A stretch of DNA of 64,000 bases. It comes from Pseudobacteriovorax antillogorgiicola. Its GTDB lineage: Bacteria > Bdellovibrionota_B > Oligoflexia > Oligoflexales > Oligoflexaceae. Numbering within the stretch: position 1 is the first letter of the stretch; each line of letters opens with the position of its first letter. The notes below the pieces were generated by a model. That model saw only the letters and a program-made list of their open reading frames with translations. It searched no databases and was not told the DNA's origin. Both the position numbers and the translations under genes were made by a program. The DNA lies in assembly GCF_900177345.1 (NCBI RefSeq), contig NZ_FWZT01000013.1, positions 1 to 64,000 of the forward strand. Direction: 5' to 3'. This document shows, one piece after another, positions 15,172 through 61,532 of the stretch.

Positions 15172-16026
15172 TCAGTCGGGAGGAGCTGTCCAAAGCTCGG
15201 CACCGTCACCGTTTCGCGACCTCCTGTTGTGCTCCGTAGCACGATCAGCCTGAAGGCGATCTTTGCGGTAAATTAACTGGGCAGCAATACTGATGGCAAT
15301 CTCTGCTGGATCGCGACTACCGATATCTAAACCTAGAGGACAAACCAATTGCTGACATTGTTGCTCAGTTACACCTGCCCCGAGCAGCTCTCGCTTTAAA
15401 ACAACGGCTTTAGAACGACTCCCAAGCACTCCAACGAAAGGAAATCTATCGTTTTGTGATAGGGCCAACTTGAGAACAGGAAAGTCAAATTTATGCCCCT
15501 TCGTCATCGCTAATACAAAGCACTGCTGAGGAAGGTCAGAAAATATTTGTTCATAAGACAGCGATAGGTTCCTGAGCAATAGATTCTCAGCGCGGGGCAT
15601 CGCATCCAACCATTCTTGACGATCGTCAAAACAGGTGATTTGGCAATTGAGTGGCAGAAGACAGCGTACAACGGCCTGAGCGACATGGCCTGCTCCAAAA
15701 ATAGCGATCGGCCAGCTTCGGGTTCGATGTGACTCAAAAAAAAGACTCACAATACCGCCGCAGGTCATGCCTAAGTCCTTTTTCAAATTCCAAGTCAGGG
15801 CCTGGCTTCCTATAAACTCATCAGCCAGCATGCTCTGAGCGTGGCGTAAGCCATGAGCTTCCAGCTGACCACCCCCAATGGTACCAGCCACCAAACCATT
15901 CCGCGTCACCAGCATCTTAGCTCCAACATTTTGCGGGGCGCTCACGCGGACATCGGTTACGGTAACCTCGATGCAATCGACTTGATCTTCAAGGAGCCGC
16001 AACAATTTTCTTTGGGTCTCAAGCAT
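15172..16026 (-). CDS. xdhC: XdhC, molybdenum cofactor insertion/sulfuration chaperone for xanthine dehydrogenase
   Basis: XdhC proteins bind the molybdenum cofactor and deliver its sulfurated form to xanthine dehydrogenase. The N-terminal region has AGTIGGGQLEAH (the family SGGC/GGG.LE segment). The C-terminal Rossmann domain starts IAIFGAGHVAQAVVRCL, and the tail CPLGLDIGSRDPAEIAISIAAQL is the family signature. The ATG at 16026 shares its A with the TGA of xdhB (TGATG), so translation is coupled; a GTG one codon earlier is an alternative. It is the last gene of xdhA-xdhB-xdhC. Length (284 aa) is normal. Confidence 0.93.
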   Translation of the reverse strand: MLETQRKLLRLLEDQVDCIEVTVTDVRVSAPQNVGAKMLVTRNGLVAGTIGGGQLEAHGLRHAQSMLADEFIGSQALTWNLKKDLGMTCGGIVSLFFESHRTRSWPIAIFGAGHVAQAVVRCLLPLNCQITCFDDRQEWLDAMPRAENLLLRNLSLSYEQIFSDLPQQCFVLAMTKGHKFDFPVLKLALSQNDRFPFVGVLGSRSKAVVLKRELLGAGVTEQQCQQLVCPLGLDIGSRDPAEIAISIAAQLIYRKDRLQADRATEHNRRSRNGDGAELWTAPPD

Positions 16027-18389: not shown

Positions 18390-19818
18390 GAGTCCCAGCT
18401 CCTAACTCATTAAAGTATTTCTGTAGCAAATTTACCGATAGAACTCTGCGAAATACATGAGAGCCACGCAAATCGCTGATTGGTTGGATTTCCTTGAGCA
18501 TACTGACCTTAGCCTCATCAATCGTGGTTTGATTCCAAGGCTTACTCTGCATGGTAGACTCTGTACTTCTGAGCCTCAAGGGGCGGTCGGCCACACCGCC
18601 TAGGGCAAGTTTCATGGATGTGATCATCGCACCGTCTCGCTCCATAAGGAAGGCTGCACTAACGGTGGATATATCCAAGTCCTTGCGTTTCGAGACTTTA
18701 AACACGCGGAAGCCATCGCCTTTAGGAATTGGTATTTTCACCTGGGTGATGATCTCATCTTCCTCTAGGTCGAAGTCCTTATAGCCCCGGTAGAAATCCT
18801 CAAGAGGCACATATCGAAATGCCCCCTGCCGTTCAATTTTAAGCTCCGCGCCGAGGACCATTAGAGGCGGCATGGTATCGCCGATCGGTGAGCCATTTGC
18901 AATGTTGCCAACTAAGGTCGCGACATTTTTGATCTGGGGCGACGCAAATATGTGCAGGTAGCGACTTAGCTCTGGAATTGATTTTAGGCTGGCTTGCTCT
19001 AACTTTGTGAGTGTAACCCGGGCCCCAACGTGTAAACAACCATCGGATTCCTTAACAGCAGTTAGCTCTTCGATCAGCTGCAAGTCTAGAGCCTTTGAAA
19101 AGGTCCAATCTTTCTTGTTGACCCAAACACCAGTATCAGTTCCCGCTCCAAGAATTCGGACCTGAGGCTCGCTAGCCTTAATTGCGAGCGCATCTGACAG
19201 TGTTTTCGGCTTATTGTACTCTTGGGCCTGCGTTTTGATTTGCACTGGCTCAGATAGCCTAGCTTTTAAATCATCAGTGATTTGCTGGCTCAGATAGCGA
19301 TCTGCTAGAGGCTTAATCTTGCTCGCTTCCAATGCTAAACCTGATTCAATGATGCTCTTATAACCGGTGCAACGGCAAAGGTTACCGGTGCAAGCATTGC
19401 GAACATCCTGCTCAGACAGGCTTTTTTTAGCCTCGCACAGAGCACTTAAACTAGCTATAAAACCAGGAGTACAGAAGCCACACTGAGCCCCATGGTTTTT
19501 GGCAAATATATCCTGAATATGACTCGGTGCTCCACCTTCTATTAGCCCTTCTACTGTGACCAAACTATGACAGTCCAGGTGATAGACTGAGGCGATGCAG
19601 GAATTCAAGGTTTTAAAACGTCGTCCTTGGGCTTGGTCTGCTTCAGCACCCCGAGCAAATAGCACGCTGCATGAACCGCAGTCCCCTTCAGCGCAAACCA
19701 CTTTGGTACCTGTTAGGTGCTTGTGTTGACGAATATAATCGACCAAGCTTAGCAACACAGCATCGCCACGAACTTCGTGGCGATGGCCATTGATATAGAG
19801 TAGGATGTAGTCTCTCAA
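18382..19818 (-). CDS. xdhA: Xanthine dehydrogenase, [2Fe-2S]/FAD subunit
   Basis: This subunit passes electrons from the Mo site through two [2Fe-2S] clusters to FAD/NAD. The N-terminal ferredoxin domain has CAEGDCGSC plus a later Cys (LNSCIAS). The second cluster domain has QCGFCTPGF and CTGNLCRCTGY, all eight Cys present. The FAD domain includes ILGAGTDTGVWVNK, ASPQIKNVATLVGNIANGSPIGD and LEEDEIITQV. The frame stays open to a TTG at 19884, but GGGGAG lies 6 nt before the TTG at 19818, which begins MRDYILLYINGHRHEV as family members do; this start (478 aa) is preferred. First gene of the xdh operon. Confidence 0.93.
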   Translation of the reverse strand: MRDYILLYINGHRHEVRGDAVLLSLVDYIRQHKHLTGTKVVCAEGDCGSCSVLFARGAEADQAQGRRFKTLNSCIASVYHLDCHSLVTVEGLIEGGAPSHIQDIFAKNHGAQCGFCTPGFIASLSALCEAKKSLSEQDVRNACTGNLCRCTGYKSIIESGLALEASKIKPLADRYLSQQITDDLKARLSEPVQIKTQAQEYNKPKTLSDALAIKASEPQVRILGAGTDTGVWVNKKDWTFSKALDLQLIEELTAVKESDGCLHVGARVTLTKLEQASLKSIPELSRYLHIFASPQIKNVATLVGNIANGSPIGDTMPPLMVLGAELKIERQGAFRYVPLEDFYRGYKDFDLEEDEIITQVKIPIPKGDGFRVFKVSKRKDLDISTVSAAFLMERDGAMITSMKLALGGVADRPLRLRSTESTMQSKPWNQTTIDEAKVSMLKEIQPISDLRGSHVFRRVLSVNLLQKYFNELGAGTHG

Positions 19819-19939
19819 GATCGACTCCCCGAGCAAATACTGAACAAAAAGCGATTCATTTATTGTAGGCGTTGATCGGCCCAAGAGCTAGAACCGATCT
19901 CAAACCTGCCTTATCGCCAAACAGGTAAGGCTGAACCGA

Positions 19940-20020: not shown

Positions 20021-21793
20021 TCAAGCCTTAACGACAGGGATCATTTCAAATTGATCGACATCCACGAGCCCCCGGTCAGTGATTTTCAGTGAAGGAATCA
20101 CTGGCAAGGCTAGGAAAGACAGTTGTAAGAATGGCTCATCGAGCTGGCAACCCATGGCTCGGGCTTTGGCTTTCAGACGCTTCAATGTGTCAGCCACAAG
20201 ATCTGGTGATTCGTGGGTCATCAAGCCACCGAGAGGTAAGGGCAAAGCTTCCCATTGGCCCTGACCATCCACGACGACAATTCCACCGTCGATAGACTTA
20301 ATCGCCTCCAAACCCTTGAGCATGGCCTGATCTGAAGCAGCAACTGCGATAATATTGTGGGAGTCATGATTGATACTGGTGACAATGGCACCTTCTTTGA
20401 GACCAAAGCCTTGGACAAAGCCAATGGTTTGATTTCCAGTGCCATGGTGGCGTTCAAAAACGGCGATTTTCAGAATGTCTTGATCAAGATTGCTCTGCAG
20501 TTCCCCACCTTTGGCGACAACCTTATGCTCCAAGCGCTGAGTCAAGATCTGATTAGGTATGACACCTATGACATGGACTATGCTATCCTCAAGTGACTCG
20601 ATGCGTAGATCGTCTTTGGTCACCTGTTTCATATTAATATTACGGCCGGTGATAGCAACCTGCTCCCCAGCAGCAACTTTTTCAAGAACAGCCTCATCCA
20701 CAGGATGTCCGGCCTTAAAAACTTGATTGATTTGCAAGCCAGATGCCCAGCTTTGAGCATCGCGCGGCTGTACAAGGCAGAGGTCAGCGATCAGCCCTGG
20801 CGCGACCGCACCCCGATCATCAAGGCCGTAGAGTCGCGCAGCTCCGAAACTTGCAGCACGGAAGATATCTTCCGGCCTCATTCCCCCTCGGAGAGCCATA
20901 TCAACAATACAATTGATATGCCCTGTTTCCGCGATATCCAAAGGGTTGCGATCATCGCTACATAGCCCTACTGTGGCTGAAGTATAGGCATCGATCAGAG
21001 GCAAGAGCGTTTGAGCATCCTTGGCACAAGAGCCTTCACGAATAAGAACCGCAATTCCTTTGCGTAACTTTTCCTGAGCCTCTTCCAATCGCGTTGATTC
21101 ATGACAGCTGTGAATCCCTGCCACCCCATAGGCGTTGAGATCCTTGCCACTGAGGCTGGGGCAATGACCATCACGCTTTAGCTCCTTGTAGTCAAGGAGC
21201 TTCTGCAAGACTTCTTCGTCCCCATGAAGCAGCCCAGGAAAGTTCATCATTTCAGCCAGACCGAGCACCCGAGGGTGGTCGCGGAATTCTTTGATATCCT
21301 CGGCATGAAGGGCGAAGCCATTGCTTTCAAACCCAAGCTCCTCACTGGTCGAAGGTACACAGCTCGGCACCATCACGAAAATATCCATCTCTAGGGGCGC
21401 CGAAGAATCCAAGGCCCAACGAATCCCATCCTTGCCCTTGACGTTGGCAATCTCATGAGGGTCCCAGATAGCAGTTGTGGTTCCGCAGGGCATGGTCACC
21501 TGCTGGAATCGAGCTGGAGTCATAAGGCTTGACTCAATGTGAACGTGGGAATCGATAAACCCTGGGACCAAGTACTGGCCGGTACCGTCGATCACGTGCT
21601 GACCTTCGTAGGGCTCGTCAATCCCAACGATAGCTCCCTCAAACATGGCAACATCACCTAGCACGAACTTCCCTGAGTAAACATCCAGATAGTGAGCGTT
21701 TTTAATCACGATGTCGGCCTTGATCTCGCCGCGAGCAGCTTTTATTTTGGATCTTAGGGTTGCGATGGAAATGTAGCGAGCTTTACTAGTCAT
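20021..21793 (-). CDS. ade: Adenine deaminase
   Basis: The enzyme converts adenine to hypoxanthine and ammonia. The 590-residue protein is of usual length for the bacterial Ade family. Metal-site and family segments are GFIDSHVHIESSLMTP (near 95), WDPHEIANVKG, GIHSCHESTRLEEA and GLCSDDRNP. The C-terminal domain has SINHDSHNIIAVA and the family-like PLGGLMT. A GTG at 21799 is possible, but the ATG at 21793 has GAGG 5 nt upstream. Its hypoxanthine product is the substrate of the xanthine dehydrogenase encoded 140-200 bp downstream on the same strand, so the genes plausibly form one purine salvage/catabolic unit. Confidence 0.95.
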   Translation of the reverse strand: MTSKARYISIATLRSKIKAARGEIKADIVIKNAHYLDVYSGKFVLGDVAMFEGAIVGIDEPYEGQHVIDGTGQYLVPGFIDSHVHIESSLMTPARFQQVTMPCGTTTAIWDPHEIANVKGKDGIRWALDSSAPLEMDIFVMVPSCVPSTSEELGFESNGFALHAEDIKEFRDHPRVLGLAEMMNFPGLLHGDEEVLQKLLDYKELKRDGHCPSLSGKDLNAYGVAGIHSCHESTRLEEAQEKLRKGIAVLIREGSCAKDAQTLLPLIDAYTSATVGLCSDDRNPLDIAETGHINCIVDMALRGGMRPEDIFRAASFGAARLYGLDDRGAVAPGLIADLCLVQPRDAQSWASGLQINQVFKAGHPVDEAVLEKVAAGEQVAITGRNINMKQVTKDDLRIESLEDSIVHVIGVIPNQILTQRLEHKVVAKGGELQSNLDQDILKIAVFERHHGTGNQTIGFVQGFGLKEGAIVTSINHDSHNIIAVAASDQAMLKGLEAIKSIDGGIVVVDGQGQWEALPLPLGGLMTHESPDLVADTLKRLKAKARAMGCQLDEPFLQLSFLALPVIPSLKITDRGLVDVDQFEMIPVVKA

Positions 21794-21859
21794 AGGCACC
21801 TCATGAAAACCGGGGCGGGAAACTCAAAAAACGATCGCCCTTTTTACGCTATTTTAGAT

Positions 21860-32129: not shown

Positions 32130-34319
32130 CTAGGCATTCATGTGCTTTGAGACTGGTAGTTCGGTGATCAAGTCCCCAGTTAATTCACGAATCGCGGCGA
32201 TGACTGCAGGGACAACCGGAGGAGTGCCTGGCTCGCCAACACCTTCTGGTGGGAAGTTGTTTTCAACGAGGTCGACATTGATCTTCGGCGAGCGATCGAT
32301 GCGCATCACAGGATAATCATGGTAGTTGTTTTGCACAACAGCTCCATTTTTAACCTGAATATCCCCATACAGAGCTGCCGATAGACCAAATACAGCCGCT
32401 CCTTGAAACTGGGAAACCACCGCTTCTGGATGCACCACTTGTCCTACATCAGCCACCATATCAACCTGCTTCACCCGAACGCCAGAGCTGTCTTTTTCCA
32501 CTTCTACAACGACAGCGACATAACTTTGAAAGCTATAATGGCTCGCGAACCCGAGCTTCGCACCCTTCTTCTTGCGACTCGCCCAGTTTGAAACGTCACG
32601 ACAACGCTCAATCACCGCTCGGAGTCTGCCCGTGTCCTGATGCCCCAACTTACGAGACTTGCCGATGAGCTGGAGACGGTAGTCAATTGGGTCTTTATCA
32701 ACCTTACGAGCTAACTCATCAACAAAGCCATTGATCGCCGTCGCATGGAATACATTGCAAACGGCGCGGAGCCACGCAACCCGTACCGGAGCGTCGACCA
32801 TACCGTGCCTGACAGTTGCAACACCTGCTCGGTAAGGCATATTTGTAGCTCCCATTCCCAGTTCAAACTCGTGAGGCTTCTCAACACCAGCCTGGAACAC
32901 GGTCATGACCGTTGGAAACACCGTATCATGATTCCACGATAGCAAGTTGCCATCCTTGTCCAAGTCAGCTGACAGCTTTTGCCAAGAAGCTGCGTGATAG
33001 AAACCGTGTTTGATTTCATCTTCGCGGCTCCAAACCACCTTCACAGGCTTTTTCAGCTTCTGCGCAAGAGAAACAGCTTCCAGGCCAAAGTCTGGTTGAG
33101 ATTTGCGGCCGAAGCCACCACCCAAGAAAGTAACGTGAACGGTTACCTTCTCTTCAGGAATTTTTAGGTACCCAGCGGCGCTTGCCCTTAAACGCTGAGG
33201 ATCTTGAATCGGTGCCCAAATCTCCATACCACCGTCCTTGGTGGGCGCAGCAGTTGCCACGAGAGGTTCCATAGGCGCATGCACAAGGAACGGAGCTGAA
33301 AACTCTTGACTTACGGTATAGGCTGGTTTGGCAGAAGGCTTCTTCCCTTCAGTCTGAGCGACTTTAAGCTTCGAGGGCTCTCCAGCTTTTTTGAGTTTCT
33401 TCATGTAAGCTTCGGTGTCCAACTTCCCATAAGGACCATCTTGCCACTGAACCTTAACCTTACTCGCTCCCTGCATGGCCGCCCAGCTATTGCTGGCGAT
33501 GACTGCCACAGCCGCATTGGTGTTGATGGGTTGCGGAATTGCATCGAGAGTAACCACATCCATTACGCCGGTCTGTTTCTTAGCGTCTTTAGCATCGAAA
33601 GACTTGATGCTGCCACCAATGGTGGGGCTACGATTAAGAGCTGCGTACACCATTCCGGGGCGTTCCACATCCATACCGTAAGTTGCCTGACCGGTTGACA
33701 AAGCCTTACGGTCGACCGATAAGCTTTTCTTGCCGATAAGCTTGTAGTCCTTTGGCTTCTTTAGTTCGACGTCCTTTGGTACAGGTAATTTCGCTGCCAC
33801 AAGGGCTAGCTCCTGATAGCTCAAGGACTTACCTGAAGACTTGTGATAGACCTTGCCCTCTTTCGCATAACATTCAGAGGCCTTCACTTTCCAAGTTTGA
33901 GCCGCTGCGGTTTCAAGCATGGTCCGTGCTGTAGCGCCAAAAGTTCTGAGACGATCCCAGTTGAAACGGATACTGCGGCTACCGTCTGTATTTTGGTCGC
34001 CGTATTTCTTATCACCCGTTGCCTGAATGATTTTAACATCATCGAGGTTGACTTCTAGTTCCTCGGCAATCAGCATCGGAATTCCGTTACGAATCCCTTG
34101 CCCCATCTCTGACCGGTGACAAACAATCTCGATCGGCCCCTTGCTAGGTACGGACAGAAAAACGTTCGGACTAAACTCTTTATTGGGATCAGCAGCAGCC
34201 ATCGCCGCCATAATCTTGGTTGCTGTACCTTCTGCCTGAGTCGTCAAGACGAATCCAGCAACTCCAGCGCTAGTTTGTACGAAACCGCGACGGCTCATAT
34301 TTTTAATGACTAAGCTCAT
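32130..34319 (-). CDS. Molybdopterin-binding large subunit of a Tat-exported hydroxylase (IorB-like)
   Basis: The protein belongs to the xanthine oxidase family, closest in layout to isoquinoline 1-oxidoreductase beta subunits. The N-terminus carries a Tat-type leader ([20 protein letters not shown]), so the enzyme is exported folded. Signatures include [22 protein letters not shown] (near 85), [19 protein letters not shown] (near 400) and the C-terminal [18 protein letters not shown] with the expected catalytic Glu. A longer start at 34397 is open, but GAGGAGG 7 nt before the ATG at 34319 and an ATGA overlap with the small subunit decide the start (729 aa). Substrate is unknown; it lacks an FAD subunit, so cytochromes or another carrier probably accept electrons. 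Confidence 0.9.
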
Positions 34320-34792
34320 GATTTTGCCTCCTCTTGCACCTGGCCGCTCGCCTTCAGAATACCCTTGCGAATTCGGGGATAGGTTCCACAGCGACAAATG
34401 TTGCCAGCCATGGCTGCGTCGATATCGGAATCCTTTGGTTTTTTATTTGTCTCTAGCAAGGCAGCGGCGCTCATCAGCTGCCCAGATTGACAATACCCGC
34501 ACTGAGGCACGCTAAGTTCCTGCCAAGCCTGCTGCAAGGGGTGATCGCCATCTTTGCTCAATCCCTCGATCGTTGTGATCGATGCCCCTTTTGCGGCCGC
34601 AACAGGAGTCGAGCAAGAGCGAATCGCTGATCCGTTTAGATGAATGGTGCAAGCCCCGCACAAGCCTTTACCACATCCAAACTTTGTGCCCTTCATATCG
34701 AGCAAGTCACGGATAACCCAAAGCAGAGGCATCTCATCGGGAGCCTCCACCTCGTAGTTCTTGTTGTTAATGAAAAGTTTGTGTCGAGTCAT
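34316..34792 (-). CDS. [2Fe-2S] small subunit of the IorB-like hydroxylase
   Basis: This is a two-cluster ferredoxin-type subunit of 158 residues. The first cluster uses Cys40, Cys45, Cys48 and Cys60 ([16 protein letters not shown]). The second uses Cys98, Cys101, Cys133 and Cys135 ([18 protein letters not shown]). The ligand set is complete. It has no signal peptide and presumably is exported bound to the Tat-bearing large subunit, as known for related dehydrogenases. It overlaps the large-subunit start by 4 nt. The first gene of this two-gene operon; the XdhC-MocA fusion gene is divergent, 290 bp away. Confidence 0.92.
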
Positions 34793-35085: not shown

Positions 35086-36714
35086 GTGATCGAACAACAG
35101 GAGCGCTTGAATTTCCTTGAGACTCAACGAGATATGCAGGATGGGATTATAGTTGTCTCGTTATTTTCAACAGCAGGCTCCACTTATCAGAAGGCTGGCG
35201 CTCGGTTACTTGTAGCACTCGATGGCACCACATGCGGATTGATTAGTGGTGGTTGCCTGGAACCTGAAATTGCCAAGCAAGGCTTAAACGCCTGGGACTT
35301 GGGACAAATTCTCGAATGGGAGGTGGACACCACCGACGACGCAGACCAATTTTTTGGCTACGGGCTGGGATGCAAGGGCGTCCTAACCATGGTGTTCGAG
35401 CCAGTACGGTTTAAGGATCAAGCTCACTTCGACCGCATACTAGAGCTTCTCAGGCCACCAAGCGAGGAACGCAAGATCATACACGCCTTCGATCGTAAGG
35501 AGGGCATGCTCTTTCGCGCCACTCAGAGAGAGCATCTTTGGGACTGCGAGCCGGGCTTCCCTGAGCATCTGATTGAAGGTGCGGGAAGCGAGCGATTCCT
35601 AGTACTGCGAGAAGAGCAGGATCCAGTCCCAACCGTTAGCATTTTCGGCGCCGGAACTGACGCCGTCCCCTTGGCCCGCCTAAGTGCTCAAATGGGCTGG
35701 ACAACTAAGGTCTACGACCGGAGCTCTGAAAAGATCGCACGTCAAAAGTGGCCAGATCGGGTAGAAACCTACGCGCTCCCCACCAAGGAAGCCCTTGCCC
35801 GAGTTTCCAACGGGCCACATCAATTTGTCGTTGCTATGACCCACAACTTTGAATCCGATAGCGCTGTCCTGGATGCCATTGCTTACAAAGATCAGATTCC
35901 GTACCTTGGATTGCTTGGCCCAGCACACCGCCGAGAGGCACTGTTTAAGCAGACTTCGGCTAGCAAGTCTGAATTGATGAGTAAACTTGCTGGCCGGCTA
36001 TTCTCTCCCATAGGCCTCAAAACAGGGGGGCGGCAACCAAGCGAAATCGCCCTCAGCATTGTTTCAGAAATCCAAGCGGTACATCGACGAACAGGACTAG
36101 CGAAAAAACGAAGGCATCAAAAGGTTTCAGTGGTGGTTTTGGCGGCTGGAGCCAGTCGTCGTTTGGATGGACCACGCAAGCAGTTGGTCCAATTTGAGAA
36201 TCAGAGCCTATTGAAAAAGGCTATCACCCAAGCTCATAAAGTTGCCAATGCTGGAGTTTTTGTAGTTTTGGGTGCCCATACCGAAGTGATTGCAAAGGAG
36301 ACTAGTCCTAACGAAACCCTAGTCTATAACCCTCGCTGGGAAACTGGGATCTCCAGCTCTATCAAAGCGGGTTTTAACGCTGCGATTCCTAACCCAAACA
36401 ATAGCCCTGAGCACTCGGTGTTATTCTGCTTGGTAGACCAACCACTGATCGATGAAGGGCACCTCACAAACATTATCCGCAGAGCTCAGGAAAACCAGGA
36501 TTTGGTGGCAGCTAGTGAATACGAAAACACGGTCGGTGTTCCGGCTATCATCGCAGCAGAACTAGCAGGTGAGATTGAAGATATTAAGGGTGACCAAGGT
36601 TGCAAGGCACTGATCAAAAGCCAAAGCCAGGTGAGTTTAGTTCCGTCTGCGGAGCTGGCCTTCGATATCGATACACCGCAAGATCTAGAGGCTCTGGCTC
36701 GTTTAGAGTTATAG
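35086..36714 (+). CDS. XdhC/CoxI-MocA fusion: molybdenum cofactor chaperone plus cofactor nucleotidyltransferase
   Basis: Residues 1-340 form an XdhC/CoxI protein: GLISGGCLEPEIAKQG near 45, a Rossmann start VSIFGAGTDAVPLARLS near 185, and LFSPIGLKTGGRQPSEIALSI near 305. Residues 345-542 form a MobA/MocA-like nucleotidyltransferase: VVVLAAGASRRLDGPRKQLV (nucleotide loop), NPRWETGISSSIKAG, LFCLVDQPLI and GVPAIIAAEL. MocA makes molybdopterin cytosine dinucleotide, the cofactor form used by many non-XDH hydroxylases; XdhC-type proteins insert it. One polypeptide could therefore make and deliver the cofactor to the hydroxylases encoded on either side. GTG start with GAGG 7 nt upstream. Confidence 0.88.
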   Translation: MIEQQERLNFLETQRDMQDGIIVVSLFSTAGSTYQKAGARLLVALDGTTCGLISGGCLEPEIAKQGLNAWDLGQILEWEVDTTDDADQFFGYGLGCKGVLTMVFEPVRFKDQAHFDRILELLRPPSEERKIIHAFDRKEGMLFRATQREHLWDCEPGFPEHLIEGAGSERFLVLREEQDPVPTVSIFGAGTDAVPLARLSAQMGWTTKVYDRSSEKIARQKWPDRVETYALPTKEALARVSNGPHQFVVAMTHNFESDSAVLDAIAYKDQIPYLGLLGPAHRREALFKQTSASKSELMSKLAGRLFSPIGLKTGGRQPSEIALSIVSEIQAVHRRTGLAKKRRHQKVSVVVLAAGASRRLDGPRKQLVQFENQSLLKKAITQAHKVANAGVFVVLGAHTEVIAKETSPNETLVYNPRWETGISSSIKAGFNAAIPNPNNSPEHSVLFCLVDQPLIDEGHLTNIIRRAQENQDLVAASEYENTVGVPAIIAAELAGEIEDIKGDQGCKALIKSQSQVSLVPSAELAFDIDTPQDLEALARLEL

Positions 36715-40262: not shown

Positions 40263-40778
40263 TTAAGTGGTTAGCCCTGGCTCGCTTAAGATAACTTCCT
40301 TGATCGCGCGGTGATATCGAACATACCCCGTGCACCGACACACATGCTCTCCCAGAGAGTTCTGAATCTCTTGATCTAATTGAGACTTGGCGATTGGCTT
40401 ACTTTTCAGCTTATCCATCAGAACCAACGCCCCCATCAGAAACCCCGGTGATGAGTAGCCACACTGGAAGGAGAAGTGTTTTAAGAAAGCTTCTTGTAAT
40501 TTATGAAGCTTCCCTTCCTTTCCAAGACCCTCGACTGTTGTTAGCTCTTGGCCATTGACTGCACTTAAGGGTGTGATACAAGCCTGCATCTTCATCATCT
40601 TGCCGTCTTTAGGTTTTACAGCGACAGTACAGGCTTTACAGCTGCCCACCGCGCAACAGACTTTTGTACCCGATAGACCACAGATCTCTTGCAGGTAGTC
40701 GGCCAACATCAGCTGGGGTGAGACTTTGTCTTTATACGTCTTACCATTGATTTTGACGTTAATATCAACTTTGCTCAT
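40263..40778 (-). CDS. [2Fe-2S] subunit of a molybdenum hydroxylase, one ligand Cys replaced by Ser
   Basis: This 171-residue subunit has the two-cluster ferredoxin layout. The first cluster ligands Cys42, Cys47, Cys50 and Cys67 are present. In the second, the usual CGxC reads Cys106-Gly-Tyr-Ser109-Ser-Pro-Gly, while Cys147 and Cys149 (VCRCTGY) are kept. The codon for residue 109 is plain Ser in the sequence. The second cluster would have three Cys and a possible Ser ligand, or be altered. It overlaps the large-subunit gene by 4 nt and has no leader, so it would be co-exported with the Tat-bearing partner. Confidence 0.9.
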   Translation of the reverse strand: MSKVDINVKINGKTYKDKVSPQLMLADYLQEICGLSGTKVCCAVGSCKACTVAVKPKDGKMMKMQACITPLSAVNGQELTTVEGLGKEGKLHKLQEAFLKHFSFQCGYSSPGFLMGALVLMDKLKSKPIAKSQLDQEIQNSLGEHVCRCTGYVRYHRAIKEVILSEPGLTT

Positions 40779-43525
40779 GATAGGGACTCCTTTACCTGTT
40801 GGGCTGTTATGGGTAGATCTCTAAAACGTTTGCCAGTTGCATCGGCAACCGCATTGGCAATCGCTGGTGCAATGGGAATCATCACCACTTCTGCCATTCC
40901 TCGTGTAGGCTCGTCTGGTGACTCCGCTTCGATGATGTGTAGCTCGGTTTTGGTCACTGGCATATGTTTATAGCGCGTCAGTTCATAGCGACCAAAATTC
41001 CAGCCTCCTTCCCCGGCACCACCTTTTTCTTCCGGAAGCATTTCATAGAGGGCTTGTCCCATACCCATGGCAACGCCACCATCATTTTGACCCTCAACGA
41101 TATCTTTGTGGATGATCGGTCCGCAATCGATGAACGACTGCACTTCATCAACTGTTACCTGACCCGACTTTCTATCGATGGCTACACCGATGATCGCTGC
41201 GCAAGGAGTATAGGTATCTACCCCTTTATTGCGATTAGCGATGGGCGGAAAGTAAACCTTCTTTCTTTTAAGAAGATCGTACTTCCCATTTGCTTGGCGA
41301 AACGCAAGAGCATCGAGAGGTAGCTTGCGGACTTCACCGTCCACCTTAAAATCGGCCTCTGCCCAGGCACATCGATAGTAACCATGCACCATGACTCCTG
41401 TGTTATAGTTCTTTTTGTAAATGACTTCGGCGAGGGCCTTCATTGACAAGGCTTTTTTAGAACCATACTTAAGAGAGCCGTTCGTCCACTTTGCTTTACG
41501 GGCTTCGCTACGATTGTATGGAATATCCCATAGGTGGCTCGCAGCTCTCCAAATGCTGGTTTCAAATAGAAGTTTGCTAGCTTCCATGACACCGTGTCGT
41601 TGCTGATAGGCAGAGGCACTGGCTGCTGTCCCCATGGATACAGCGGGCACCCAGTGGGGGTCTTTGGCGAGACGGTCTTGCTCTTCCTGAGATAAAACAA
41701 ATTTACCTTTAAGTTTGAGCACATCAAAATCTGTCGTTGCTCCAAGGTTTATGGAACTTGCATTCACTCCTAAGTGCGCTGCTGTTGCCAGAGGCATGGT
41801 AGTGGCTGCTCCATTGCCCATCTCAGTGCAGTTGGTTTTCATTTCAACTCGACCTTGGCGATCGATTGCGACCTCACAGAGGATGGCGTCGAGATTGGTA
41901 CCAAAGCTTTTCATCGAAGCAGCAAAGCCAATCCCGTAGATCTGATCTTTATTCGTTCGCTGTTTCTTGATCTTATCGCGATTCTTCCAAAGCGCATGCT
42001 TTTGAGCTTTTAGCATCATCTCCTTGGCTCTGAGACGATGGCTTGGAATCGTTCCCTGTGGTGTTCTCATGCCAGTTTCAAACACGTTCCTGAGTCTCAA
42101 CTCAATGGGGTCCATCTTCAGCTTTTCGGCTGCTTCATCAATTAAGGACTCAAAGGCGAACATGGATTGAGTTGTTCCAAACCCGCGCATCGACCCCGCT
42201 GTCACTCCGCGCGTTTTCTTGCCCACAAAGGAGATATCTGAGCGGGGCAGGTAGTAGGCTGAGGTTGCATTTTGTGCGCCTACAGCGGGTACGACAAAAC
42301 TAAAGTTATTCTTGCCACCACCAGAATATTCCAGAGATGCTTGGATAGCTTGGAACTTGCCGTTTTTATCTACCGCGATGCTCTCGTCGATGCGGCACGA
42401 GTGTCGTTTAAGTCCCATCTGAAACTGGTCCTGCCTATGTTGGATCAATCGGATGGGTTTACCGTCCGCAAAAGCAGCTGCAATCGCCAAATAGTTGGGA
42501 AAAATGGAATGGTCCCTACCACCAAAACCACCACCGATGTAGCAGGCGTTCATTTCGATCGTTCTCGGAGATATGATGCTACCCTTCCCTGAGAACATCT
42601 CCACAGCACCTTCGGCATCGTGGTAGGGGGATTGAGTCGATAATACAAAGCTTAGGGTTTTTGACTTGGCATCCCACCAACAAAGCCCCGACTCAGGTTC
42701 CATAAAACAACAGTCTACGGTCTGCGTGGAATACTTACCACCAACAACCTGCCAACCTTCACTCTTGATATCTTTTTGGATCTTGTCCGCAAAGTACATA
42801 CCTCTCTCATTGGCGTTGCCCTTGGCTTTAGGTTTTTGATAGGGAGGCTGAATCATACCGCTGTCATGAACCGCTGAATAAAGATCTTCGCCGTTGGGTT
42901 TTGCATAGCGAACATACCTTGCCTCGGTATAGGTACCCTTCAGTGGCAAGGTCTGCTTTTTGCCCCATTTGATTAGTGACGACTGGTTGATGTAGTTCAC
43001 TTTTCCCACTAGAAAAGCGTCAGCATCTTCGAACAATAGTAATGCCACCGGTTGACCCAAAAAGTCAGCAGGCTGGCCAAGCTCTGTGAACAGGCTCGGC
43101 TGAAAGAAATATGGCACCTTGAGACCAGCCTTCTTGAACTCCTTAGATGTGATCACTTTGGATGGCCGATACTCTTTAGGAATTGAACTAAAATCCACCC
43201 CTTCGAAAACCTGATCGTAGCGATCAGCCTTTAGAATGACGACCCGGACCTCTCGTTGCGGCCAGCCGGGAATGTCTTGAGCTCTATAGTCACGACCATA
43301 GACCTTTGCACCCATAACCTTTCGGACACCTTCGTAACGGAACTTGGCCTTGCCTGGCCCATCCATCCAATCGCTATGGTGTTCGAGGTGCTGTAGCGGG
43401 TTATCGGTATCCTTGCGGGGTGCAGCCCACAGATCTTCAAAGGGAAAGGGGTTGACAACGATGGTGGCCCCACCCACTGCAACCGAGTTCCTTAAAAAGT
43501 CTCGCCTCGACTGATTCTCAATCAC
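40775..43525 (-). CDS. Molybdopterin-binding large subunit of a Tat-exported aldehyde oxidase-like enzyme
   Basis: A long xanthine-oxidase-family subunit of 916 residues. The GTG at 43525 follows a perfect AAGGAGG by 6 nt and starts MIENQSRRDFLRNSVAVGGA, a Tat leader, so the longer open frame to 43606 is not used. Family signatures are YIGGGFGGRDHS (near 330), GSMRGFGTTQSMFAFESLIDEAA, CTEMGNGAATTMPLATA and, near the C-terminus, RGMAEVVMIPIAPAIANAV with the expected catalytic Glu. Large insertions relative to XdhB lie in the first 300 residues. Substrate is not deducible. No FAD subunit accompanies it, as for the other exported hydroxylase in this window. Confidence 0.9.
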   Translation of the reverse strand: MIENQSRRDFLRNSVAVGGATIVVNPFPFEDLWAAPRKDTDNPLQHLEHHSDWMDGPGKAKFRYEGVRKVMGAKVYGRDYRAQDIPGWPQREVRVVILKADRYDQVFEGVDFSSIPKEYRPSKVITSKEFKKAGLKVPYFFQPSLFTELGQPADFLGQPVALLLFEDADAFLVGKVNYINQSSLIKWGKKQTLPLKGTYTEARYVRYAKPNGEDLYSAVHDSGMIQPPYQKPKAKGNANERGMYFADKIQKDIKSEGWQVVGGKYSTQTVDCCFMEPESGLCWWDAKSKTLSFVLSTQSPYHDAEGAVEMFSGKGSIISPRTIEMNACYIGGGFGGRDHSIFPNYLAIAAAFADGKPIRLIQHRQDQFQMGLKRHSCRIDESIAVDKNGKFQAIQASLEYSGGGKNNFSFVVPAVGAQNATSAYYLPRSDISFVGKKTRGVTAGSMRGFGTTQSMFAFESLIDEAAEKLKMDPIELRLRNVFETGMRTPQGTIPSHRLRAKEMMLKAQKHALWKNRDKIKKQRTNKDQIYGIGFAASMKSFGTNLDAILCEVAIDRQGRVEMKTNCTEMGNGAATTMPLATAAHLGVNASSINLGATTDFDVLKLKGKFVLSQEEQDRLAKDPHWVPAVSMGTAASASAYQQRHGVMEASKLLFETSIWRAASHLWDIPYNRSEARKAKWTNGSLKYGSKKALSMKALAEVIYKKNYNTGVMVHGYYRCAWAEADFKVDGEVRKLPLDALAFRQANGKYDLLKRKKVYFPPIANRNKGVDTYTPCAAIIGVAIDRKSGQVTVDEVQSFIDCGPIIHKDIVEGQNDGGVAMGMGQALYEMLPEEKGGAGEGGWNFGRYELTRYKHMPVTKTELHIIEAESPDEPTRGMAEVVMIPIAPAIANAVADATGKRFRDLPITAQQVKESLS

Positions 43526-43820
43526 ATCCGACCTCCTTGGAGAGTTTCGCGCCGGGTCAACCGACGGCAGCAAACGATCTTTGACTTTTGGGATTAGCTG
43601 GTCCAATTATACGCTATTTATTTGGCGTATTGGAGAAAACTTATCGCAATCGCGAGTAACCCTCACTTTTTTGCGAACTTCTTGCAACTGATATTTGGAC
43701 TAAGTCATATTAACCACACTACCTTACGTTGTATTAAAACTTTTGTGCAATTTAATTGTTCATACGTTCAATTTCGGGTACCACCTGCCTACCAATAACA
43801 ATTTGATTCAGGGGAATGAC

Positions 43821-55572: not shown

Positions 55573-56292
55573 TCATGAGGGCTGAACCGAGCCCAAATCC
55601 CGCCGCTCCAAAACTTTGCGACGAGTTGCCACGTAAGCTCTCTCATGGTCGAGCGGCTCCACTTTGGCACCAGTGGAAAAAGACGTGAAGGCGGGCAAAA
55701 CAAGGCTGCTGCCCTGCAAGTAATAGCAAGGCAGAATCAACTGGGTCAAACCCAGATCGACACTTACTACTGGATGAAGGTGACCAGAAATTGTCAGGCC
55801 ATTCCAGGGATCGTGCTGCTCCCCCAAATCATGAATCAATCGAACATTGGACTTAATCAGCGAACCATAGACCCGATGGACATTCCAAACCATAGGAAAT
55901 TCGGGTACGTGGCGATCGTGATTGCCCTCGACCACAATAAACTCACACTCCCATGACTTGCGACGCTTCGCAAAATTTCGAATGATATGGGTGCTTAGGC
56001 TGGAATTGTGGTGGATGAAATCCCCAGCGACAACCACCCGTTTCGGATTGAATTTTTTGATGTTAGCCTCAAGTCGATCGAGGTCTCGTTCCCCTACTTC
56101 ACCAGGAATAGGAATCCCATGGTAGCGAAAGCTCTCATCCTTGCCAAGATGCAAATCACTAAGAATCAACCATGATTCGTCAAGCCAGTAGATACATCGA
56201 TCTGTGCTTAGTTCAAAAGCTTGATCTTCCAGATAGATTCTCATATTGCCATTCGGCAATCGTCGCTCGCGCCGTATGTTGTGGTGGCTCAT
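55573..56292 (-). CDS. pdeM: PdeM-type metallophosphoesterase, ligase-associated DNA repair
   Basis: PdeM is the phosphoesterase/endonuclease of the bacterial ligase-associated DNA damage response set. The 239-residue protein has intact metal motifs: SDLHLGK (DxH), AGDFIHH, VEGNHDRH and SGHLHP. The residues SFRYHGIPIPGEVGERDLDRLE after the first motif are typical of the family. It follows the Lhr-type helicase by 9 nt on the same strand, with GGAGG 5 nt before its ATG, and is the last of the four-gene set exonuclease-ligase-helicase-pdeM. This gives a useful contrast with the Cys-substituted phosphoesterase at 39381, whose motifs are altered. Confidence 0.92.
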   Translation of the reverse strand: MSHHNIRRERRLPNGNMRIYLEDQAFELSTDRCIYWLDESWLILSDLHLGKDESFRYHGIPIPGEVGERDLDRLEANIKKFNPKRVVVAGDFIHHNSSLSTHIIRNFAKRRKSWECEFIVVEGNHDRHVPEFPMVWNVHRVYGSLIKSNVRLIHDLGEQHDPWNGLTISGHLHPVVSVDLGLTQLILPCYYLQGSSLVLPAFTSFSTGAKVEPLDHERAYVATRRKVLERRDLGSVQPS

Positions 56293-56301
56293 CTACGCCT
56301 C

Positions 56302-58737
56302 CTACCAAGTACTTTCTAAGATTTCAATCTTTTCCCGAAGACTCTCAGAATCGAATTTTGTTGCTGCTCTCGACGCCCAAACAGGCATGGAAAACGGTGT
56401 TAAGCGCTCCACTGTCTTTATCAAAAGCCGGCTTTTTTCTAAGCGCTGCAAGGCTTTCTCAAGACGATGAATCTCGAACTGCTGATGAATCACCTCGTCC
56501 TTTGCAAGTTTAAGAAGTCGATTGCCCCGTTCGAAGCGCTCAAAGACCTGATAGATGAGGTTGGAACTGACCTGCACCTGCCGCCCTGATTTTCGTTGTC
56601 CAGGATAGTTCTGAAGCACCAATCCAGCAATCCGTGCGATGGTACGAAACTGTTGCTGACTTAACTCTGAGAGATTAACACTTTTTGTGAGGTCATTCAG
56701 AACATTGTCACAACTAAACAAGCTAGCTTTGAGAGCTTTGGAAAAATCAAATGGCTGTCGACTGAGAAGCTCGACTCCATACTCGTTAACGGACACCTGA
56801 AAGCTCGTATCGTCACCATGGCTAAGCCTTAAAGCGAGTAGTAGACCAATAGCTTGGTTCAAATGAATTCCTTCAAAAGGGAAGATAAAGCAATGATAAC
56901 CATCCCTGGTTCGGCAGAGTTCAACTAGCACTTCACCGACTTGTGGCAAGGCAGACAAACGTTCTTGAGTTTCAATAATATTTTCTACCAATGGCTCTAC
57001 CGGACTGGCCCAGATCATATCTCGAAAATTTTCAATCACGTTTCGTAGGTTCCATGCGAGTGGCGCGCTAAGTGCGAGCTGACCACCATACCAACGAGGC
57101 GTCTGACTGTGAACTTTTTTAGCAAGGCTCACATAGCACACGCCATTGTAGAGCTTATTAAAGGCGAGACGCCTGCCAGCAAATGTAAAGGTATCGCCTT
57201 TTTTCAATCGAGAAAGATAGCGCTCCTCAACGTGACCAAGGCGCTTGCCACCTTGAAACTTCACCTGTACTGTAGCATCCGCCGTAATCGTACCAATGTT
57301 CATTCGATGAATGCGGCTTATGCGAAGCTCAGCCTCTCGGTAGCGACCGTCGACTTCCGTGATCTTATGATATCTCTCATAAGCCTTTAACGAATCCCCA
57401 CCCCTACTTGCAAATATCAGACACCATTCATAGTCCTCTCGGCTAAGGTTTCGAAGACCCCAAGCCGTCCTCACTTCATTAAACAACTGATTAGGTTCAA
57501 AACCTGGGCCAATCCCAACTGTCACAATGTGCTGGATCAGAACATCAAGATAGCCTTCGCAAGGTGGAGGGCTTTCAACATCACCCCGGGCCACCCCTTG
57601 CTGCAAGCCCTGCACTTCAAAAAGCTCAAAGCCATGGGTGGGGATAAAACGTATAACACTATCACGACCTGGTTGATGAGCGGAACGTCCTGCTCGTTGC
57701 AATAGTCGAGCAATCGATTTCGGTGAACCAATTTGGTAAACACGCTCAATCGGGGAAAAATCGAGGCCAAGATCGAGTGAGGCAGTGCAAACCACCAGTT
57801 TGAGCTCGCCACTTTTGAGGCCATCTTCTATCTGAGTTCGGTTCACTTGATCAAGAGATCCATGGTGCAGACCAATGGCATCTTTCTTGTCAGGAAACTG
57901 CTCAATAAGACCCTGGTACCATCGCTCTGCAAACGACCGGGTATTTGTAAAAACTAGCGAAGGTTTACGCCAGTCAAAGTCTTTGGCAAAAACCTTCATC
58001 ATCCCCATCCCAGAGTGCCCGGCTAAGGGAAGATCAGCCTGACGCTCAGGAACTAAGGTGGTGATTTCAATACGACGCTTTTCAGAGCTGCTCACAATCA
58101 AAACCTGGCTGTCGGTTCCCAGTAGGGTTTGGCACGAAAGGCCCAGATTGCCAAATGTAGCCGACATACCCCAAGTTTGTAAGTTGGGATTCAAGCCTCG
58201 AAGCCGAGATAAGCAAAGCTCTAGGAATGCACCGCGCTTGGTTCCAAAGAACTCATGCCACTCGTCGACAATTACAGAGTGACAAGATTGAAGCAATTGA
58301 TCTGAATTCCGATAGGAAATCAGAATGGCTAAAGATTCTGGAGTGGTGATCAGGACATCTGCGAGACGCTCCCTCTGCTTCGAGCGTCGGTACGAAGACG
58401 TGTCGCCGGTACGAACATCCAAACTAATTGTTTTACCGGAAAAGCCGACTATCGGTGCCAGGGCTTTTTCTATATCTCGGGCAAGAGCCTTCAAGGGAGT
58501 AATGTATAAGACTTGCAAGCCTTTCTTCCGCGACGTTTGCACCGCTCTCCAGATGGGCCCAACTGCCGCAGCATAGGTTTTTCCAGAGCCAGTCGGCAGG
58601 CTCAGAAGACCGCTTCGACCATCACGGTAGGCCTCCCAAGCTTCGATCTGATAGGGCTTTGCTTGCCAACCTAAAGTCTCAAGAAAGGCATTGCCGAATT
58701 CCACGGGGTCTTGGGGATTAAGCACGGCGCCCCCCAT
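56302..58737 (-). CDS. Lhr-type ligase-associated DEXH-box DNA helicase
   Basis: The 811-residue protein is an Lhr-core superfamily 2 helicase. Walker A is LPTGSGKTYAA near residue 49, motif II is VDEWHE (DEXH-type, as in Lhr), motif III GMSATFGNL, and motif VI LLQRAGRSAHQPG. After the helicase core come the Lhr winged-helix/core domains. The open frame extends to 58884, inside the ligase gene, but the ATG at 58737 (MGGAVLNPQDPVEFGNAFL) gives the family-like N-terminus and overlaps the ligase 3' end by 20 nt. A GTG four codons later is an alternative. It acts with the ligase, exonuclease and PdeM in repair, as known for this conserved gene set. Confidence 0.92.
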   Translation of the reverse strand: MGGAVLNPQDPVEFGNAFLETLGWQAKPYQIEAWEAYRDGRSGLLSLPTGSGKTYAAAVGPIWRAVQTSRKKGLQVLYITPLKALARDIEKALAPIVGFSGKTISLDVRTGDTSSYRRSKQRERLADVLITTPESLAILISYRNSDQLLQSCHSVIVDEWHEFFGTKRGAFLELCLSRLRGLNPNLQTWGMSATFGNLGLSCQTLLGTDSQVLIVSSSEKRRIEITTLVPERQADLPLAGHSGMGMMKVFAKDFDWRKPSLVFTNTRSFAERWYQGLIEQFPDKKDAIGLHHGSLDQVNRTQIEDGLKSGELKLVVCTASLDLGLDFSPIERVYQIGSPKSIARLLQRAGRSAHQPGRDSVIRFIPTHGFELFEVQGLQQGVARGDVESPPPCEGYLDVLIQHIVTVGIGPGFEPNQLFNEVRTAWGLRNLSREDYEWCLIFASRGGDSLKAYERYHKITEVDGRYREAELRISRIHRMNIGTITADATVQVKFQGGKRLGHVEERYLSRLKKGDTFTFAGRRLAFNKLYNGVCYVSLAKKVHSQTPRWYGGQLALSAPLAWNLRNVIENFRDMIWASPVEPLVENIIETQERLSALPQVGEVLVELCRTRDGYHCFIFPFEGIHLNQAIGLLLALRLSHGDDTSFQVSVNEYGVELLSRQPFDFSKALKASLFSCDNVLNDLTKSVNLSELSQQQFRTIARIAGLVLQNYPGQRKSGRQVQVSSNLIYQVFERFERGNRLLKLAKDEVIHQQFEIHRLEKALQRLEKSRLLIKTVERLTPFSMPVWASRAATKFDSESLREKIEILESTW

Positions 58738-60193
58738 AGGTATTGAGTAAATCTTGAGCCCTGGATAAGGTATCCGCCTCGGGAGCAGATTTATCCTTGC
58801 GCCAGCGTAAGATCCTAGGGAAGCGTAGTGCGATTTTCGATTTGTGTCGACCAGAGGGAGATATTCCTTCAAATGCCAGTTCAAAAACTTGAACTGGTTC
58901 TACCTGACGAACGGGACCAAACTTCTGCTCCGTATGGCGTTTGATCCAGCGATCAAGTTCAACAATTTCAACTTGATTTAGTCCCGTGTAGGCCTTGGCA
59001 ATAGGCACCAGCTCCTGCCCTCGCCAAACCGCGAATGTATAGCTGGTACAAAGATTTGCCCGCCTCCCATGCCCACCTTCTGCGTAGATCATAACCACAT
59101 CGAGTGTGAGCGGCTCGACTTTCCACTTCCACCAATCACCCTTCTTACGGCCGTGATGATACCGCGAATCCCAGAGTTTGAGCATCAGCCCTTCGGCAAG
59201 CTTATCTCTGGAAACTTGCCAAGTTTTTTTTAGCTCACCCCAACTGCGGCATTCATGCCTTTCGCTTAGGAGTATCGAACTTTGACCTTTCATAAGATCT
59301 TCCAAGATCTCTCGCCGAAATCTCAAGGGCTTTGAGCGAATATCGTCCCCCTGCCACTCTATTAAATCGTAGGCCACAAGCCTGACTGGCAACTCGCCTT
59401 GGATTTTTGGACTGGGCTTCTTTCTACCAAGTCTCTTCTGTAATTGATGAAAAGGGGCTGGCAGATTTGCTCGGATATCCCACACAAGCAACTCTCCGTC
59501 GAGTACGGTACCGTTGGGAAGATCTTGGGCCAATTCGAGAAGATCGGGAAACTGATCATTGATTAATTCCTCACCACGAGACCAGAGAAACGTTTGCCCT
59601 TGTCTCTTGATCAGTTGACACCGAATGCCATCCCATTTCCATTCTGCGCTATAGTTTTCAATGCTGCCAAGTGCCTCGGGGTCCACTTCAATGGGATGGG
59701 CGAGGCAAAAAGGGTATGGCTGAGCTAGATGGTCCCTCACATCGTGACTAGCATTGCGGAGCCTAGCGACAAAGTCACCAGTTACGGCCCAAGGGCCCAT
59801 GAGCCGATGAGCCACTGCGCTAGGTTCTAGTTTGAACGCACTAGCCACTGCTCGGGTCACTAGCTTTTTCGATACTCCGACGCGAAATCCGCCAGTAATG
59901 AACTTGTTAATCAGGAATACCTCTTGTCTATCAAACGATCGCCACAGATGTAAGAGCCTTTCTCGACGTTGCTGCTCGTTTAAGTCTTGCATCGGTTCAA
60001 TCAGAGTCGTGATCACACCTTCTAGATTAAGCTTCGCAAATTCACGATCTGTTTCGTTATCTGGGAGTAGTAAAGCAATAGTCTCCGCAATGTCGCCTAC
60101 AACCCCATAGCTTTCTTCGAGCAGCCAACCTGGAATATCATTGATTTCTTGTAGCCACTCCCGCATAAGCCGAGAGCTTACGACCCTTTTCAA
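58718..60193 (-). CDS. ATP-dependent DNA ligase of the ligase-associated repair set (5' end irregular)
   Basis: The enzyme seals nicks using ATP. Catalytic Lys186 lies in AEWKWDGIRCQLI (KxDG motif), followed by SRGEEL, DGELLVW, VRLVAYDLI, EGLMLKLWDSRYH and WWKWK motifs. The N-terminal DNA-binding domain (RLMREWLQEIN, FITGGFRVGVSKKLVTRAVA) is present. The first usual start is a TTG at 60193, which trims the family-typical beginning. About 44 codons upstream in the same frame encode LDATNSTNKK and DGDIAWALFFLTGRR, as expected for this family, but contain no ATG, GTG or TTG. See the entry at 60194-60329. Usually 530 or more residues; here 491 from the TTG. Confidence 0.85.
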   Translation of the reverse strand: MKRVVSSRLMREWLQEINDIPGWLLEESYGVVGDIAETIALLLPDNETDREFAKLNLEGVITTLIEPMQDLNEQQRRERLLHLWRSFDRQEVFLINKFITGGFRVGVSKKLVTRAVASAFKLEPSAVAHRLMGPWAVTGDFVARLRNASHDVRDHLAQPYPFCLAHPIEVDPEALGSIENYSAEWKWDGIRCQLIKRQGQTFLWSRGEELINDQFPDLLELAQDLPNGTVLDGELLVWDIRANLPAPFHQLQKRLGRKKPSPKIQGELPVRLVAYDLIEWQGDDIRSKPLRFRREILEDLMKGQSSILLSERHECRSWGELKKTWQVSRDKLAEGLMLKLWDSRYHHGRKKGDWWKWKVEPLTLDVVMIYAEGGHGRRANLCTSYTFAVWRGQELVPIAKAYTGLNQVEIVELDRWIKRHTEQKFGPVRQVEPVQVFELAFEGISPSGRHKSKIALRFPRILRWRKDKSAPEADTLSRAQDLLNTYGGRRA

Positions 60194-60329
60194 ACGCCGC
60201 CCAGTGAGGAAAAATAACGCCCAAGCGATATCGCCATCGGGTGCACATTGTAAGTAATGTTCTAAAATATCTAACTTCTTGTTCGTCGAATTAGTGGCAT
60301 CGAGTTGATAGAAGGTTTGAGGCTTTCAT
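60194..60329 (-). other. Family-typical ligase N-terminal coding segment without an in-frame start (frameshift or read-through)
   Basis: On the minus strand an ATG at 60329-60327 overlaps the exonuclease TGA (60328-60326) as ATGA, the normal coupling. It reads MKASNLL and then meets a stop after 12 codons. One base later, the +1 frame reads FYQLDATNSTNKKLDILEHY and continues without break into the ligase. Two extra T in CCTTC would restore MKASNLFYQLD, matching the family start. The ligase frame is also exactly the exonuclease frame, so it continues after the exonuclease stop. Either a sequencing/assembly error, a recent mutation, or recoding explains this. Confidence 0.75.
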
Positions 60330-61348
60330 TCGCCCTCCCCTTCATAAAGAGACTTCAAGTCTTCTGCTTCTAGCCGGTGGTTTTCCCTAAGAAACCTAGC
60401 AAGAACATCATTGTATCCATGTGTTACAAGAACCTTTGAGGCCTTTGACTGCTCAACAGTTCTAATGAGAGCTGGCCAATCTGCATGGTCTGAGATCACG
60501 AAGCCTTGATCCATAGCCCGTCGCCGTCTGCTCCCACGAAGGGCCATCCAGCCAGATGCAAGAGCCTGGGATGCCCCTGTTAGACGTTTGATCCATCGCC
60601 CGCCTTCGGCAGATGGTGGTGCTATCACTAAGGCCTGCTGCCAATCGGAGCAATCCCGTGGATCGTCAGCACTCCTATAATGAAAGTCTAGATTCAAAGC
60701 TTCTTGATAGTATTCCGTTAAGGCCACGCAAGAGTTGTGTAAGATCAACGGCCCTGGGTAACAACTGCTCCCACCTGATGAAAGAGACTGTAATTCGGCA
60801 AGGAGTCGTTGAGCTTTGCCAAGGGAGTAAGCGTAGAGCAATGCTGGTTTTCCCAGCTTAGCCATGGACTGCCACCAAGACAAAACATCCTCCACTACCA
60901 ATCTGGTATCGCGCCACTGGAACACCGGTAGAGCGAACGTAGCTTCGGTCACGAAGACATCGGAGCGAAGCGGTACGAAGCTTTGGGCGGTAGGGTCTGG
61001 TGCCCGTTTATAGTCACCGGAAACGACCCATACCCGATCGCCCGCTTCTAATCGGATCTGGGCGGAGCCAAGGATGTGCCCCGCTGGAAAGAAAGTCACA
61101 CCAACTCCATTCAGCTCGAAACTCTCGCCATAGGCGACTGATTCGAGTTGCTGTTCCTCGAAGCCGTATCGAATTCTCATGATTGAGCAGCTATGGGCAT
61201 GTGCAATATACCGCCCCATGCCTCGATAGCAGTGATCCCCATGAGCGTGAGTAATCAGAGCTGTCTCCACCGGGCGCCATGGATCGATGTAAAAGTCTCC
61301 TCTTTGGCAGTAGAGGCCTCGGTCATTGACTTGAAGTAGTTGTTCCAT
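60326..61348 (-). CDS. MBL-fold exonuclease, ligase-associated DNA repair
   Basis: A metallo-beta-lactamase-fold (beta-CASP/SNM1-like) exonuclease of 340 residues. The metal motif is THAHGDHCYRGMG, with later FPAGHILGSAQIRL, VSGDYKR, and VISDHADWPALIR near the C-terminus, all typical of the ligase-associated exonuclease. The ATG at 61348 is preferred to the preceding GTG. It is the first gene of the four-gene set and ends in ATGA with the presumed ligase start. Known homologues degrade DNA ends in the same pathway as the ligase, Lhr-type helicase and PdeM. Confidence 0.92.
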   Translation of the reverse strand: MEQLLQVNDRGLYCQRGDFYIDPWRPVETALITHAHGDHCYRGMGRYIAHAHSCSIMRIRYGFEEQQLESVAYGESFELNGVGVTFFPAGHILGSAQIRLEAGDRVWVVSGDYKRAPDPTAQSFVPLRSDVFVTEATFALPVFQWRDTRLVVEDVLSWWQSMAKLGKPALLYAYSLGKAQRLLAELQSLSSGGSSCYPGPLILHNSCVALTEYYQEALNLDFHYRSADDPRDCSDWQQALVIAPPSAEGGRWIKRLTGASQALASGWMALRGSRRRRAMDQGFVISDHADWPALIRTVEQSKASKVLVTHGYNDVLARFLRENHRLEAEDLKSLYEGEGE

Positions 61349-61532
61349 CACTCACCTGGACTTTAAGCTTTCCAACCTACCATTATCGGGATCTCAGGTT
61401 ATTTGTTCTCGCCTGATTCGGTGGCACCATTTTTAGCTCGATCACCCCTGCAAAGCAGCGGTTGAGTCATTCGCCGATCCGTGATTCACTTGCTGAGAGC
61501 CAGAAAACAAAATGAACTCTAGGAAATTTAGT

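Follow-up and report, generated by a model that had tools for sequence, protein, structure and literature searches.

A probable deletion of about 5 bases just after the start codon breaks the ligase frame of a DNA damage response cassette in Pseudobacteriovorax antillogorgiicola

The cisplatin damage response ATP-dependent DNA ligase gene of P. antillogorgiicola has probably been disrupted by an ordinary frame-breaking deletion of about 5 bases just after its start codon, and its expression by recoding is disfavoured on the sequence evidence. The gene was analysed in a window of 64,000 nucleotides (the whole stretch of DNA under study, on contig C13) from a 7.28-Mb draft genome of 68 contigs that was approximately 97% complete. 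Profile searches placed a ligase-associated DNA damage response cassette in four consecutive minus-strand genes running from 61351 to 55573 (Table 1). As in the known cassette (TIGR04122/04120/04121/04123), the four genes formed one run on one strand. Three of them were intact ORFs scoring above the curated cut-offs, the exonuclease reaching 423.3 bits against TIGR04122 (cutoff 325; profile positions 1-326 of 326), and the ligase body was also above its cut-off. However, the ligase start codon here was out of frame with the ligase body, which sets it apart from the known cassette. No papers on the ligase-associated cassette were found in the literature with the search terms used.

Table 1. Features of the cassette and of the exonuclease-ligase junction, in window coordinates.
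Feature	Position	Strand	Details
Exonuclease (TIGR04122)	60326..61351	-	Intact; 341 aa, starting at GTG 61351 and ending with TGA 60328-60326
Shine-Dalgarno (SD)-like purine-rich GGGGAGGG	60333..60340	-	Just upstream of ATG 60329; from the sequence
Short ATG-started frame	60291..60329	-	12 codons (ATG + 11 sense), then TAA 60293-60291
Putative site of net 5-nt deletion	60318..60321	-	Between GCCT and CAAACC; about 60320/60319, exact position ambiguous
Ligase N-terminal coding stretch, no usual start	60194..60325	-	Follows the exonuclease TGA immediately, in that gene's frame; covered by profile and Pfam matches, helices in the model
Remainder of cisplatin damage response ATP-dependent DNA ligase (TIGR04120)	58718..60193	-	491 codons from TTG 60193
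Ligase-associated DEXH box helicase (TIGR04121)	56302..58737	-	Intact; 942 bits
Ligase-associated phosphoesterase PdeM (TIGR04123)	55573..56292	-	Intact; 170.2 bits, cutoff 150

Re-reading of the minus strand bore out the original prediction that the exonuclease TGA overlaps an ATG (60329-60327, as ATGA) whose frame ends after 12 codons. The ligase body was in the exonuclease frame, one base out of phase with that ATG, and this frame was open for 535 codons from 60325 to the stop TAA at 58720-58718. The only ATG, GTG or TTG near its 5' end was TTG 60193-60191, preceded by 44 residues. When read from 60325, the frame matched TIGR04120 with 565.7 bits (cut-off 400; protein residues 6-527, profile 8-526 of 526) and Pfam PF04675 (DNA_ligase_A_N) at residues 3-161 (profile 7-174). 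The stretch upstream of the TTG was covered by both matches, showing that it is real ligase sequence and that the frame shift is far beyond chance; the prediction that the ligase N-terminus has no usual start and shares the exonuclease frame, out of phase with the ATG, was thus confirmed. Catalytic motif I (KWDGIR) was intact, with K230, W231, D232, G233, I234 and R235 invariant in the alignment. Ribosomes starting at ATG 60329 would be expected to yield only a 12-residue peptide.

The junction was compared with 84 loci carrying a related ligase; 80 were taken from species genomes, and the other four from genomes of the same family as the window genome. The phylum search covered 58 genomes, none of the same genus, and the nearest homologues were only about 50% identical. 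The family-position start codon, in a single open frame with the ligase, was absent from the window gene and present at 83 of the 84 loci (ATG, GTG or TTG; exactly placed in 81 and one codon further upstream in two); the last locus is cut off within the gene by the end of its contig. The frame break was therefore confirmed against homologues and absent from them, as for a gene disrupted by an indel. The distance from the start codon to the conserved Asp12 was 33 nt in the relatives with a start at the identical position (81 loci) and 28 nt in the window, indicating a net shortage of 5 nt. Alignment of the DNA with same-family genomes likewise gave the window sequence one gap of 5 nt, just past codon 3 and slightly upstream of CCTTC. 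The same ATGA-type overlap, with the start 1 nt before the exonuclease stop, occurred at 52 of the relatives' loci. Lysine was the second residue in 73 of 82 family sequences, and AAA (Lys) is likewise the codon after the window ATG. Because of the 33- and 28-nt distances, the 52 identical overlaps, the 5-nt gap and the Met-Lys match, ATG 60329 is likely to be the ancestral ligase start.

On this comparison, a single net deletion of 5 bases would be the simplest lesion. Before it, the cassette would have held a normal ligase starting at the ATG that overlaps the exonuclease stop; the net loss shortly after this ATG would have left the first codons in a different frame from the remainder. The two bases that had been proposed as missing from CCTTC would restore the phase; however, the protein would then be one residue short of the family length. 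A two-base loss was accordingly rejected, as the alignment preferred one 5-nt gap and the start-to-Asp12 distance was 28 rather than 33 nt. In the same-family genome G001, the closest relative at the genome level (locus L082, 1354-1359), the ligase TTG directly followed the exonuclease TAA in the same frame, a junction unusual for the cassette. In a possible alternative history, 9 bases that included the start codon were lost in frame from a G001-like junction, given that the G001 ligase and exonuclease share one frame. However, the SD-ATG-AAA standing at the family-typical overlap would then have to be coincidental.

The preferred deletion is probably a real mutation of the DNA, and probably a recent one; nothing pointed to programmed recoding. 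In the window, 36 ORFs read cleanly, no other broken gene was seen among the window genes examined, and the multi-domain proteins that were scanned had their domains in order. These clean neighbours, the position of the site in the contig interior, the lack of a homopolymer and the 5-nt size together favour a real mutation. One lesion in 1.6 kb of gene would fit a recent event, and near-invariant residues of the ligase body were kept to the same degree as in same-family genomes (166 of 203, compared with 165 and 159 of 203).

A sequencing or assembly error, the living cell carrying an intact ligase gene, is less likely but holds a substantial minority share of the probability. That share was kept because the authors of the GeneTack survey expect most singleton frameshifts with homologue validation to be errors of sequencing (PMC3711429), and the intact state of the rest of the cassette and the draft status of the genome (68 contigs) are compatible with an error. 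However, a 5-nt shortage outside a homopolymer is an unusual type of error, the site lies deep within a contig of 197,726 bases, and the frame was broken in no other window gene examined. The assembly error raised in the original prediction thus survives as the lesser option beside a mutation. Like the singleton frameshifted prokaryotic genes of that survey (PMC3711429), the window ligase is the lone broken member of an intact family with a site that is not conserved; it differs from them in having its lesion at the very 5' end and an apparent 5-base shortage.

If the mutation is real, the cell might tolerate it by making a working ligase from TTG 60193 that lacks the first 47 family positions. 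The 491 open codons and the complete catalytic domains of this form are consistent with such tolerance, as is an upstream stretch slightly more divergent than expected. However, only a weak purine stretch (GGGCGG) precedes the TTG, and the N-terminus was kept in all relatives covered. An AlphaFold2 model of the open frame, which resembled archaeal and human ATP-dependent ligases, placed helices at residues 2-10, 14-27 and 30-40 (pLDDT mostly 83-95), within the Pfam DNA_ligase_A_N domain. The truncated form would drop these three helices of the DNA-binding domain, and the rest of that domain was predicted with lower confidence (blocks roughly 59-92, compared with 71-94), which is an indication and no measure of stability. 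The stretch upstream of the TTG was relatively the most divergent among 83 sequences (ratio 0.72, next 0.78); a conserved-column test of excess N-terminal divergence was not significant (p = 0.25), and N-terminal decay was not accepted as proof of disuse. A functional truncated ligase is unlikely: of the earlier proposal of a fresh mutation tolerated through this TTG, the mutation is favoured and the tolerance is not.

Translation of the full ligase by recoding was weighed in two forms. Read-through of the exonuclease TGA would make an exonuclease-ligase fusion, in line with the position of the ligase body directly after the TGA in the exonuclease frame and with the same phase in G001. However, no selenocysteine or suppressor tRNA (anticodons tca, tta or cta) was present among the tRNAs found in 44 places of the approximately 97% complete assembly, with a tRNA family model that may miss an atypical tRNA-Sec, and recoding of this type was rejected. 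Further, TGA terminates 12 of 36 window genes, the G001 ligase starts separately at a TTG immediately behind the TAA, no fusion was seen among the relatives checked, and an intact SD-ATG is available in the window for a separate start. Read-through is thus extremely improbable.

The second form, a programmed or efficient +1 slip at CTT-C (60314-60311), would join the ATG start to the ligase frame. The frame relation is indeed +1, re-pairing of CTT on TTC is possible, and a classical +1 site is present in the organism's own prfB. That site (genome G000, contig C25, record 35071; locus L088, just upstream of locus position 1501) was the canonical GGAGGTTTCTTTGAC, reading GGAGG-TTT-CTT-TGA-C, and served as an internal positive control; the organism therefore presumably slips +1 when given known signals. 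The prfB motif combines an internal SD about 3 nt before CTT with an A-site stop codon (PMC12421855). The ligase site resembles prfB in the +1 relation and the CTT codon. However, the SD 3 nt before CTT, the A-site stop and conservation are all missing from the ligase site: the SD is approximately 20 nt from CTT, no suitably spaced internal SD or stimulator was found, and CTA occupies the A site. This codon is common (14.7 per 1000), and CTT-CTA occurred in frame 5 times in 36 intact genes. tRNA-Leu(GAG) and tRNA-Leu(UAG) were both encoded, and a hungry-codon slip was rejected as CTA is common and has its cognate tRNA-Leu(UAG). No unusual RNA structure was predicted at the site (fold z +0.41), which disposed of an RNA stimulator, and transcriptional slippage was dismissed as the sequence has no long A/T run there.

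Conservation of the shift site, as would be expected of a programmed +1 event, was also lacking, the shift being found in no relative (same-family genomes closest, no same-genus genome in the set). Among bacterial +1 sites of this type, CUU_U is by far the most efficient (PMC5009743), and background slippage amounts to 1e-5 to 1e-7 per codon, with an exception of 5% at CCC-AGG-C (PMC7022156). The latter is the rpoB case, a precedent in which a fresh frameshift was partly suppressed spontaneously, with no dedicated signals; however, the rpoB site has rare codons, whereas the A-site codon of the ligase is common. An efficient +1 slip is accordingly very unlikely. A working switch, in which basal +1 slipping close behind the ATG or downstream reinitiation would keep the ligase low and the exonuclease normal in this lineage, is slightly less probable still. 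Neither the +1 slip nor the fusion of the original prediction was upheld, and its own proposed comparison with relatives, whose frames were intact and did not share the shift, went against recoding, a word that should be dropped from its title.

With the favoured deletion, full-length ligase would be essentially lost, leaving no more than a small amount of truncated protein initiated at TTG 60193 or of product from rare spontaneous slips. In annotation, the gene should be marked as a frameshifted ligase, neither as a 491-residue TTG-started protein nor as an exonuclease fusion. A real lesion would make the strain a natural experiment on cassette function in the absence of the ligase; were the ligase translated all the same, the site would provide an uncomplicated example of frameshift suppression. 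The helicase probably starts at ATG 58737-58735, overlapping the ligase end by 20 nt, and broken ligase translation may also reduce helicase expression through lost translational coupling of the overlapping start. No clear SD was seen for this likely helicase ATG (overlap region 58718-58737).

Adjoining the cassette on the opposite strand were a histone-deacetylase-family gene (PF00850; 61512-62444) and an endonuclease VIII gene (PRK10445; 62530-63354). Elsewhere in the window, many molybdenum hydroxylase genes were gathered in one region (14384-43606), with xanthine dehydrogenase-type subunits at 16026-19884, 32130-34792 and 40775-43606, XdhC-family genes at 15172-16029 and 35086-36714, and an adenine deaminase gene at 20021-21799.
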